Positions 54,536 through 57,540 of a stretch of DNA of 64,000 nucleotides are shown in pieces (the first letter of the stretch is position 1; every line of letters begins with the position of its first letter). Source of the DNA: Dehalogenimonas sp. THU2. GTDB lineage: Bacteria > Chloroflexota > Dehalococcoidia > Dehalococcoidales > Dehalococcoidaceae. Location of the stretch: assembly GCF_039749495.1 (NCBI RefSeq), contig NZ_JBDLLU010000010.1, positions 1 through 64,000 on the forward strand, written 5' to 3'. Made by a program: the position numbers and the translations under genes. Below the pieces are notes generated by a model, which made no database searches, was not told where the DNA came from, and saw only the letters and a list, made by a program, of their open reading frames with translations.

Positions 54536-54943
54536 TCAGCTAATGGCGCGTCCGGCCATGAAACCCGCTACAGATACGATGCCACTGATGAACATACCCC
54601 ACAGCAGGTCAGCGACAACGACGGTCATCGGCCAGCCCTTCAAGGTGGCCAGATTGCTCAAATCATAGGTGGCATAGGCGACCAGACCGAAAAGAACGCC
54701 GAGGCCGGCGGCCCGGAGTAAAGAATCGGCATCGATAGCCGGAATGATCACAAATACCATCAAACCCACGATATAGATGAAGTAGAAGATCAGCGCAGGG
54801 GCCAGGTTGAAGGAATCCTTGAGCAGGTTGCCCAGGTGTTCCCGGTAGAAGTTTTTGGAGATCACCGCCAGCCAGAGGAAATCGATTCCCAGGAAGATCA
54901 CCAAAGTGATGACGTAAAGCAGGGCGATTTTTATAAAACTCAT
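54536..54943 (-). CDS. DUF2177 family membrane protein
   Basis: A 135-residue protein with four helices: LLYVITLVIFLGIDFLWLAV, LAPALIFYFIYIVGLMVFVI, AAGLGVLFGLVAYATYDLSN and a last one ending VAGFMAGRAIS. FLGIDFLWL and YATYDLSNLATLKGWP are family marks. In many bacteria DUF2177 is encoded with DUF1295, cyclopropane fatty acid synthase or photolyase genes in light- or singlet-oxygen-induced clusters. Here it is the last gene behind DUF1295, 46 bases away. Confidence 0.9.
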   Translation of the reverse strand: MSFIKIALLYVITLVIFLGIDFLWLAVISKNFYREHLGNLLKDSFNLAPALIFYFIYIVGLMVFVIIPAIDADSLLRAAGLGVLFGLVAYATYDLSNLATLKGWPMTVVVADLLWGMFISGIVSVAGFMAGRAIS

Positions 54944-54989: not shown

Positions 54990-55766
54990 TTATTGCTTGG
55001 GCGGCAAGGGTATAAATACGCTGGTACGGCTGGCATACTCCCGAAACTCCGGGTTCCGGCGCATGGATTTTTCCAGGAGCGGAACTCCGGAGACGAACAG
55101 AATCAGCCATGTGATGGTGAGCGGGCCGGCGATGGTCCACCAGGCGCCCGGGATACTTAGGGCGATAAGGAAGATGCCCCACCACTGGAACACTTCACCG
55201 AAGTAGTTGGGGTGCCTGGAATAACGCCAAAGTCCGCTTTGTAAGATCTTGCCCCGGTTGGTCTCGTCACTCAAGAAATTGTCCAGCTGCCGGTCAGCGA
55301 CCGCTTCAAAAAGGAAACCCATGAGCCACACCAGGCCGCCCAAGAGGTCCGGCCATCCCAGCGAGTCTGATGAGACAGCCATGATAACGACGACAGGCAG
55401 GGATATCAGCCACATGAAAAAGCCCTGGAGAAGGAATACCTGAAGATAGCTTCTCAACATCCAGCTGGAACCCCATTCCTCGCGCCATTGCTGATATCTG
55501 GGATCCTCTCCTTTGCCGCGGTTGCGCCGGTAGATGCGTGATGCCAGCCGGAGACCCCAAACTGTTACCGTGCCCAACACCAAAGCCTGCCTGACCAGGT
55601 AATCTTCGGCGACGATGAACGCGGCGCCGGCGACTAGTATAAAACCGGGGCCCCAGGCGATGTCGGCGACCGAATTGTCCCGACGCTGAACCGCTACGGT
55701 GAACATGGCGGTCATGTAAAGGAAGATGATCACGCCGGAGAGTATGAGGGCGTTAGCGATATCCAT
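54990..55766 (-). CDS. DUF1295 membrane protein (steroid reductase / isoprenylcysteine methyltransferase-like)
   Basis: A 258-residue integral membrane protein of the DUF1295 family, related to steroid 5-alpha reductase and ICMT-like enzymes. Marks: DIAWGPGFILVAGA, RLASRIYRRNRGKGEDPRYQ, the conserved LWRYSRHPNYFGEVFQWWG and PLLEKSMRRNPEFREYASRT. A lipid- or isoprenoid-modifying role using NAD(P)H or SAM is likely but unknown. It starts three bases after the DegV stop, so both are translated from one mRNA. Confidence 0.92.
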   Translation of the reverse strand: MDIANALILSGVIIFLYMTAMFTVAVQRRDNSVADIAWGPGFILVAGAAFIVAEDYLVRQALVLGTVTVWGLRLASRIYRRNRGKGEDPRYQQWREEWGSSWMLRSYLQVFLLQGFFMWLISLPVVVIMAVSSDSLGWPDLLGGLVWLMGFLFEAVADRQLDNFLSDETNRGKILQSGLWRYSRHPNYFGEVFQWWGIFLIALSIPGAWWTIAGPLTITWLILFVSGVPLLEKSMRRNPEFREYASRTSVFIPLPPKQ

Positions 55767-55769
55767 ATA

Positions 55770-56618
55770 TCATTCCTGACTGCCGCCGGTCCTGACAGCC
55801 ACCAGCAGGACACCCGGACCACCGTGAACCCCAAGCCCGGCGCCCATTTCCGAGACCGTTATCAGCTTATCTTCGATGAACTCGGTCAACCGTTGTTTCA
55901 ATCGGGCAGCTTCATCAGGAACCTGACTGTGAACGATGGACAGTTCGGTAACCGGGAGATTATGCCTGACGAAATCGATGATTCGGTCTATGCCGCGGCT
56001 GAGACTGCGTACGAGGCCGGCCCGGGTGATCTCTCCGTCATGGAAGGTGAGCAGGGGCATAACGTTAAGAAAATGCGAAGCGGCAGCAATGGTTTTATTG
56101 ACCCGCCCGCTGCGAGCCAGATACTTCATGGTTTTGAATAGGCCGAACATCTTCGTTTCTGCTATCGCCCGCTCGGCCTCTGCGACAACTTCAGCGAAGG
56201 AACCTCCTGCCTTAGCCTTGCGGGCGGCGGACCGCACGACCAGGCCTAACCCGGCGGAGTTGAATTTGGAATCGATAACTACGATGGGGAAACTACTGTC
56301 AAGCGATTTGCGGGCCATGGACGCTGAGTTGAAGGTGCCGCTGATCTTCGAGGAGATATGGATCGAGACGATGCCTTCGGCGTCTCCGGAGTGTTTTCGG
56401 AAAACCGTGATGAAGTCTTCCGGATTGGGCTGGGAGGTAGCAGGGTGCGCCTCGGTGGTGGTCAGCCGGGAATAAAGCTGGCCTGGGCTGATATCGAGAC
56501 CGTCGCGGAAAGTTTCCTGACCGAAGCGTACGTAAATCGGGACAACGGCGATGTCCAGTTCATCGGCGAGCGCCTCTGGGATATCCGAGGTGCTGTCGGT
56601 GATCACTTTTACCGGCAT
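55770..56618 (-). CDS. DegV-family fatty acid-binding protein
   Basis: A 282-residue DegV protein; members (such as FakB) hold a fatty acid and can pass it to a fatty acid kinase. Marks: VKVITDSTSDIPEALADELD, TSQPNPEDF (TxSQPS-like), SIHISSKISGTFNSA with the carboxylate-binding SGT, and VVIDSKFNSAGLG. No kinase gene (fakA/DAK type) is adjacent. Its start lies 30 bases after the heliorhodopsin stop, with one shared direction. Confidence 0.93.
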   Translation of the reverse strand: MPVKVITDSTSDIPEALADELDIAVVPIYVRFGQETFRDGLDISPGQLYSRLTTTEAHPATSQPNPEDFITVFRKHSGDAEGIVSIHISSKISGTFNSASMARKSLDSSFPIVVIDSKFNSAGLGLVVRSAARKAKAGGSFAEVVAEAERAIAETKMFGLFKTMKYLARSGRVNKTIAAASHFLNVMPLLTFHDGEITRAGLVRSLSRGIDRIIDFVRHNLPVTELSIVHSQVPDEAARLKQRLTEFIEDKLITVSEMGAGLGVHGGPGVLLVAVRTGGSQE

Positions 56619-56648: not shown

Positions 56649-57416
56649 CTAGGCTGGGAGCAATACCGGGAAGAATACCTGCCAGGCCAGGAGGGCTTTG
56701 GCCGTGAGGCTCAGGAGGATATACACTTTTTCGCCGTGCAGGTAATCGCGCCAGGGACCGATTTTCCGGTACTGGAGGATCATGTTGACGGCGAAGCAGT
56801 TGAAGAAGACGAACAGGGAAATGATGATACCGTATACGAATCCAGGCGGCGAGGCGGCGAGACCGGGCGCCCAGACATAGATGACGATAGCCAGCCAGGG
56901 GATGATGCCCGCAAAGCTGCCGAACCAGAAGGGCAGCAACCCCGGCCTGCCTGGTTGCTCATATTTTTCTTGTAACAGACCGAAAAGGATCATAGCGGCA
57001 TTGACGCCGAAAATGGCCAGCAGGGCGGCGATATCGCTGATGCCGGTGATCTGGGCTATGAGGACGATCATGATGGAAGAGCTGAAGAAGTACTCTATCC
57101 ATCGGCCGTAGTTACGGTTTTGGAGGAGGTTGCGTTTGTACCAGGGGAAGACCCAGGGCGAAGCCATGAGCAGTAGGGCGCCGGACGAGATAGCCAGAAA
57201 AGTGAAAACACCCCAGCCTGTGAGGATATCGAACAGGCGGTGAAGCTCAGGAGCCGTGCCAGGGGGACCGCTCATGAAGGTGGCGGTCACCGGTAGAGCG
57301 AAGTCGTTGGTAAGGATGGCAATGGCAATCGCCTGCGTCGCGAGGATTAGCCCGACCACGATGTTCCAACGGCGCAACCGGTCAATTCTTTGTTCGGCGG
57401 ATAAATCAACGGTCAT
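56649..57416 (-). CDS. heliorhodopsin
   Basis: A 255-residue seven-helix retinal protein of the heliorhodopsin family (PF18761 type; N-terminus cytoplasmic, opposite to type 1 rhodopsins). Diagnostic blocks: NDFALPVTATFMSGPPGT, GRWIEYFFSSSIMIVLIAQ (Arg 105, counterion Glu 108), ALLAIFGVNAAMILFGLLQE (Glu 150), PGFVYGIIISLFVFFN and EKVYILLSLTAKALLAWQVF with the retinal lysine at residue 240. Compared with the well-known 48C12 protein, the positions of His 23 and His 80 are Leu here. First gene of an operon with DegV, DUF1295 and DUF2177 genes; GGAG ribosome binding site. Known members have slow photocycles and no pumping, so a sensor or lipid-related regulator role is inferred. Retinal source in this organism is unknown. 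Confidence 0.93.
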   Translation of the reverse strand: MTVDLSAEQRIDRLRRWNIVVGLILATQAIAIAILTNDFALPVTATFMSGPPGTAPELHRLFDILTGWGVFTFLAISSGALLLMASPWVFPWYKRNLLQNRNYGRWIEYFFSSSIMIVLIAQITGISDIAALLAIFGVNAAMILFGLLQEKYEQPGRPGLLPFWFGSFAGIIPWLAIVIYVWAPGLAASPPGFVYGIIISLFVFFNCFAVNMILQYRKIGPWRDYLHGEKVYILLSLTAKALLAWQVFFPVLLPA

Positions 57417-57511: not shown

Positions 57512-57540
57512 ATTATATATACCCTCAGGCTTAAAGACAA
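57512..57540 (-). promoter_or_regulatory. promoter of the heliorhodopsin operon
   Basis: On the minus strand TTGTCT (57540-57535), 17 bases, TATAAT (57517-57512). The leader to the ATG is about 90 bases and contains a GAAGGAG ribosome binding site near its end. No light-regulator box can be named. Confidence 0.75.

Follow-up and report, generated by a model that had tools for sequence, protein, structure and literature searches.

What heliorhodopsins do has yet to be settled. In the signalling state, the Schiff-base proton is reported to sit on His80/His23 (residues numbered as in 48C12; PMC9726877). Another structure paper regards this pair as non-essential, since single mutants retain pigment (PMC6951262), and mutants without one or both histidines are still pigmented (PMC6951262, PMC9726877). 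TaHeR of a Thermoplasmatales archaeon (PDB 6IS6) also has the histidine pair, and because its host makes no retinal, capture of retinal via a fenestration has been proposed (PMC9385722). Heliorhodopsins of strictly anaerobic Firmicutes have been published (PMC8612252), and a heliorhodopsin of Dehalogenimonas alkenigignens, called DaHeR in PMC9385722, absorbs at 539 nm when expressed with retinal (PMC7807009). Heliorhodopsin genes adjoining DegV (Chazan 2022, cited in PMC9385722) and adjoining DUF2177 together with an alpha/beta hydrolase (PMC11109279) are already known.

The window analysed here is a stretch of 64,000 nucleotides from Dehalogenimonas sp. THU2. The original prediction placed a heliorhodopsin gene at 56649-57416 and gave no strand. 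These coordinates hold, with the gene on the minus strand; the plus strand of the same interval has stops. A Shine-Dalgarno-like AAGGAG, read directly from the sequence, closely precedes the ATG. That prediction had tied itself to a profile match and to the alignment of Lys240 with the Schiff-base lysine. The window protein matches PF18761 over its full length (314.5 bits, E 5e-94, cut-off 26.7), and S236 and K240, which form the SxxxK of TM7, and the TM3 counterion E108 align with Ser237, Lys241 and Glu107 of 48C12, so the identification holds on both counts. The NCBIfam equivalog NF038020 'HeR' scores 313.8 bits (cut-off 100), and phmmer retrieves 48C12 (6SU3, E 3e-76) and TaHeR (6IS6, E 1e-50). 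The residues and motifs listed in advance (R105, E108, E150, S236, K240, ALLAIFGVNA and PGFVYGIII) were all found in their places. A structure model has seven long helices and a loop at approximately residues 37-65 (pLDDT 68, moderate confidence); its ten top structural matches are all heliorhodopsins, with a TM score of ~0.8 to 48C12. The window protein is thus a heliorhodopsin, modelled with seven helices and a long A-B loop, and homology predicts an inverted topology with the N terminus inside.

Across 124 aligned heliorhodopsins, K240, E108, S236, S112, E150, E229, R105, Y93 and N18 are invariant. Compared with 48C12 (PDB 6SU3/6UH3), to which it is ~50% identical over its full length, the window protein retains the GPPG loop motif and the network formed by Lys, Glu, Arg, Ser and Glu, whereas it has Leu for His23 and His80, Phe for Ser109 and Phe for Ala70. 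Identity to TaHeR is ~40%. In TM6, all compared window-like sequences have Phe at F202, F204, F205 and F208, so the protein does not appear to be of the proton-transporting viral V2HeR3 type, which has a TM6 Trp for a conserved Phe together with E191 (numbering is that of the window protein and is not matched to V2HeR3). A virus-borne origin was also considered and rejected, as a scan of viral contigs with the window protein, sensitive to close relatives only, returned no relative.

Table 1. Coordinates of the heliorhodopsin gene, its key codons and its neighbours in the window.
Feature	Position	Strand	Basis
Heliorhodopsin gene, 255 aa, complete	56649..57416	-	PF18761, NF038020, solved relatives, fold
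Lys240 codon, Schiff-base lysine (48C12 Lys241)	56697..56699	-	Invariant in 124 heliorhodopsins
Glu108 codon, counterion (48C12 Glu107)	57093..57095	-	Invariant in 124 heliorhodopsins
Leu81 codon, replaces 48C12 His80	57174..57176	-	Leu in 38/38 clade members, His in 86/86 others
Leu25 codon, replaces 48C12 His23	57342..57344	-	Leu in 38/38 clade members, His in 86/86 others
Sigma-70-like promoter match TTGTCT-17-TATAAT, upstream of heliorhodopsin gene	57512..57540	-	Consensus scan, 10/12 positions; function not implied
DegV-family fatty-acid-binding protein, next gene downstream of heliorhodopsin, gap 30 bp	55770..56618	-	PF02645 240 bits, TIGR00762 271 bits
DUF1295 membrane protein (steroid 5-alpha-reductase/ICMT-like), follows degV, gap 3 bp	54990..55766	-	PF06966 254 bits
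DUF2177 membrane protein, follows DUF1295 and ends the run, gap 46 bp	54536..54943	-	PF09945 153 bits

Although every residue named beforehand was present, the absence of two otherwise conserved histidines had been overlooked. The Schiff-base-cavity pair is His/His in 86 of the 124 aligned heliorhodopsins, Leu/Leu in 38 and mixed in none; the protein of genome G109 was left out of this scoring as a near-copy of that of G075. Among the Leu/Leu rows are those of four Dehalogenimonas genomes, many Dehalococcoidia MAG sequences retrieved by similarity to the window protein, and some sequences from Actinomycetota MAGs with labels such as bog and palsa. In a tree built without the two histidine columns, which included 35 of the 38, the Leu/Leu rows form a single group with support 100/100, corresponding to one change. 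The H23/H80 pair is not a defining trait of heliorhodopsins, and the window protein falls outside the His-pair type. Further clade-wide changes (A70 to F, S109 to F, L24 to A, Y/F15 to W) lie mostly in TM1-TM3, which suggests a repacked and less polar cavity; none of them touches Lys, Glu, Ser or the Arg/Glu/Tyr network. With Leu at both cavity positions, the published step in which the proton is parked on His80/His23 cannot work as described. In this clade, both residues that underpin the current signalling model are naturally mutated, so a single purified protein would test that model. Judged from alignments, the replacement of both histidines throughout a clade of 38 sequences appears to be novel; no remark on a histidine-less subfamily was found in the literature searched, and Kovalev 2020 and Chazan 2022 may mention such members. 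The Leu/Leu heliorhodopsins of Actinomycetota/Thermoleophilia-labelled MAGs (L015, L018, L022, L026, L027 and L033) nest within the Dehalococcoidia clade, reflecting either inter-phylum transfer or wrong binning.

The original prediction called a retinal protein unexpected in such a lineage, but neither comparison with other genomes nor the published anaerobe heliorhodopsins support an isolated oddity. In the order, 47 of 151 genomes carry the gene, and in the class 60 of 294, so heliorhodopsin is a trait of the group and not of one genome. It occurs in the window's genome (G000; 1.84 Mb, 99.8% complete, one heliorhodopsin match), in six of the seven other genomes of the genus, and in all three genomes of a Dehalococcoides-like genus. 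Four Dehalogenimonas proteins are of the Leu/Leu type (G000, G064, G116 and G123). The other three (G075, G109 and G102) lie near those of Dehalococcoides and near TaHeR and are 47-49% identical to the window protein. A single origin of all Dehalogenimonas heliorhodopsins was rejected by the AU test (p=2e-54, for a group defined after an earlier tree had been seen); the genus thus holds two unrelated lineages. DaHeR comes from a strict anaerobe of the same genus as the window host, and G075 and G109, tied to it by genus and loop motif and not by accession, are likely genomes of its type. Their heliorhodopsins belong, unlike the window protein, to the other lineage, with ~47% identity to it, a polar loop motif and His/His where aligned. 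In both lineages, Dehalococcoides included, dN/dS was 0.03-0.14 in pairs with finite dS (several of the dS estimates lie above 1 and are approximate). Ratios so far below 1 indicate purifying selection, and the protein is kept for a function. Selection strongly preserves the protein in these strictly anaerobic organohalide respirers.

The host was expected to be an organohalide-respiring anaerobe, and its genome agrees, with ~20 reductive-dehalogenase matches and no COX1 found, COX1 being the oxygen-respiration gene that the search covered. One other Dehalogenimonas genome, in a group described as strictly anaerobic, has a COX1-family match of 267 bits in a 940-aa open frame (G123:C1:1027107-1028366). 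The genome also pairs a retinal protein with no known pathway for making retinal. Of the carotenoid and retinal genes proposed for a genome-wide search, phytoene synthase and Blh were looked for in G000 and neither was detected, nor was a carotenoid oxygenase. Blh was above cut-off in 0/151 genomes of the order and 0/294 of the class (the class search had no within-class positive control), carotenoid oxygenase was found in 0/151 of the order, and phytoene synthase was above cut-off in 3/151, G000 not among them. As a positive control, the search was run on 20 genomes, mostly actinobacterial, that carry other heliorhodopsin loci, and it detected Blh in 4 of them. Most carriers among those 20 genomes also lack Blh, so heliorhodopsin without Blh is common. 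Some carriers are cultured and genome-sequenced (Dehalogenimonas, Dehalococcoides), with no known retinal pathway found in them, and offer a test bed for retinal scavenging and for the role of the protein.

In the window the heliorhodopsin gene is followed by degV, DUF1295 and DUF2177 in an operon-like run with small gaps (Table 1), and G123 has the identical gene order. In G075 and G109, the order is DUF2177, heliorhodopsin, degV, a membrane protein of a 178-aa type, and DUF1295; the two lineages therefore sit in one kind of cassette, with DegV adjoining heliorhodopsin in both. The window's DegV belongs to the wider DegV family and scores 121.9 bits against the FakB1 equivalog, below its cut-off of 350. 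DegV lies no more than two genes from heliorhodopsin in 14 loci (15 cases) versus one case at a distance of three to five genes (p 2e-5). For no other family is proximity to heliorhodopsin significant against the local background (DUF2177, p 0.07). Heliorhodopsin is present in 13 of 16 genomes with DUF2177 versus 34 of the 135 without it (p 1.8e-5, with ancestry not corrected for), and the two genes lie within ~2.2 kb of each other in eight genomes of the order. The Dehalococcoides-like genomes show the arrangement of DUF2177 and alpha/beta hydrolase described in PMC11109279. The window has the same neighbour families as the DUF2177 and DegV groups of heliorhodopsin operons in PMC11109279 and in Chazan 2022 (via PMC9385722), whereas the accessible portions of these sources do not name DUF1295 or a TspO-like neighbour and do not discuss the Dehalococcoidia or a histidine-less clade.

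A link between these families and photo-oxidative stress comes from Chlamydomonas, in which DUF2177, DUF1295, SOUL and MsrA genes are SAK1-dependent and induced by singlet oxygen (PMC4067076). Genes for SOUL, TspO and Staygreen proteins occur near heliorhodopsins in related loci, as do MsrA-like genes, recognised by reading and not by a profile. In fen MAGs, SOUL heme-binding proteins are encoded closely downstream of heliorhodopsin (gene +2 in L007, gene +1 in L029). L006 and L010 have a TspO-type protein immediately downstream on the same strand (PF03073 tested on the L010 copy). Staygreen homologues, of the chlorophyll Mg-dechelatase family, are the first or second gene downstream in the Dehalococcoidales MAGs L012 and L030 (PF12638 tested on the L012 copy). 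The 178-aa neighbour of related loci had no match in a Pfam profile search. The top structural neighbours of its model are TSPO proteins (Z 11.8, below the 13 advised for helical bundles; rmsd 3.7; 146 of 178 residues), which is suggestive of a TspO. A connection to furan fatty acids, given the furan lipids of Dehalococcoides, was weighed and set aside, with no cfa-type gene noticed beside heliorhodopsin.

We give a probability of about 0.48 to the reading in which the window heliorhodopsin is a light sensor that uses scavenged retinal, has an altered photocycle and modulates an operon for lipids and photo-oxidative stress. Retinal would bind at Lys240 and the protein would act as a slow light sensor; as the cell has no known route to retinal, it would have to scavenge it from outside. 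The heliorhodopsin gene is probably cotranscribed with degV, DUF1295 and DUF2177, and absorbed light would modulate this membrane-lipid and photo-oxidative-stress module when a normally dark anaerobe is exposed. Without the histidines, the proton may stay near Glu108, Glu229 and water, or may never leave the Schiff base. Invariance of the Schiff-base residues in 124 sequences is expected only if the Schiff base is in use, and the D. alkenigignens protein binds added retinal (PMC7807009), both of which favour a light sensor. Against it, the photolyase/cryptochrome FAD domain (PF03441) was found in 0/151 genomes of the order, which is odd for cells that often meet light, many relatives lack all of these neighbours, and the singlet-oxygen link that supports a stress module derives from an alga. 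Operators of bioremediation cultures would want to know if light affects these cells. A broader proposal, which we hold only tentatively, is of a subfamily mainly of Dehalococcoidia with a histidine-free and probably drier cavity, which would signal without proton transfer to a histidine, or sense a stimulus other than light, and would control the membrane-lipid stress module of an anaerobe with scavenged retinal.

The same cavity could instead belong to a protein that does not need light, with an apo-opsin, or another aldehyde at Lys240, serving as a membrane or lipid sensor or as a scaffold for its operon partners. Such a role would suit strict anaerobes of groundwater and sediment that have neither retinal genes nor photolyase, and a whole clade that lacks the cavity histidines and has turned cavity residues hydrophobic. 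However, Lys240, Glu108, Ser236, Ser112 and Glu229, not needed without light, are invariant; this strict conservation of the Schiff-base Lys, Glu and Ser argues against a light-independent role, and the retinal-binding pigment from the same genus (PMC7807009) also makes it unlikely. Alternatively, the protein may regulate a distant partner, in the way that other heliorhodopsins regulate glutamine synthetase, photolyase or an ABC transporter, and the DegV operon would then be incidental. Published partners do vary by host (PMC9529153, PMC9769723, PMC11109279), and in many relatives DegV is not near heliorhodopsin, but both DegV and DUF2177 accompany heliorhodopsins of the two unrelated lineages, and we consider a distant partner improbable. 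A photolyase-helper role as in Trichococcus was rejected for this order, in which none of the 151 genomes has a photolyase. Synthesis of retinal by the cell itself, through an unknown oxygen-independent enzyme, would explain how an order with no known retinal genes can have a common and conserved heliorhodopsin, yet phytoene synthase is absent from G000 and nearly all relatives, so that even the carotenoid precursor is missing and this explanation is very hard to sustain. Finally, patchy distribution and degraded copies in the order (G046, G146) might hint at a contaminant, a chance ORF, a pseudogene or a recent useless acquisition, an idea that can be dismissed given the PF18761 match, the location of the sole genome copy next to dnaE and folK on a contig of 81 kb, the presence of the gene in six other single-contig genomes of the genus, a GC content of 56.6% versus 58.0% for the whole window, and the low dN/dS.

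Heliorhodopsin genes were also observed on plasmid records, namely NZ_CP141705.1:4149-4928, from a 10.5-kb Lactococcus petauri plasmid, and CP069395.1:72588-73343, from a 180-kb Chloroflexota record in a plasmid collection.
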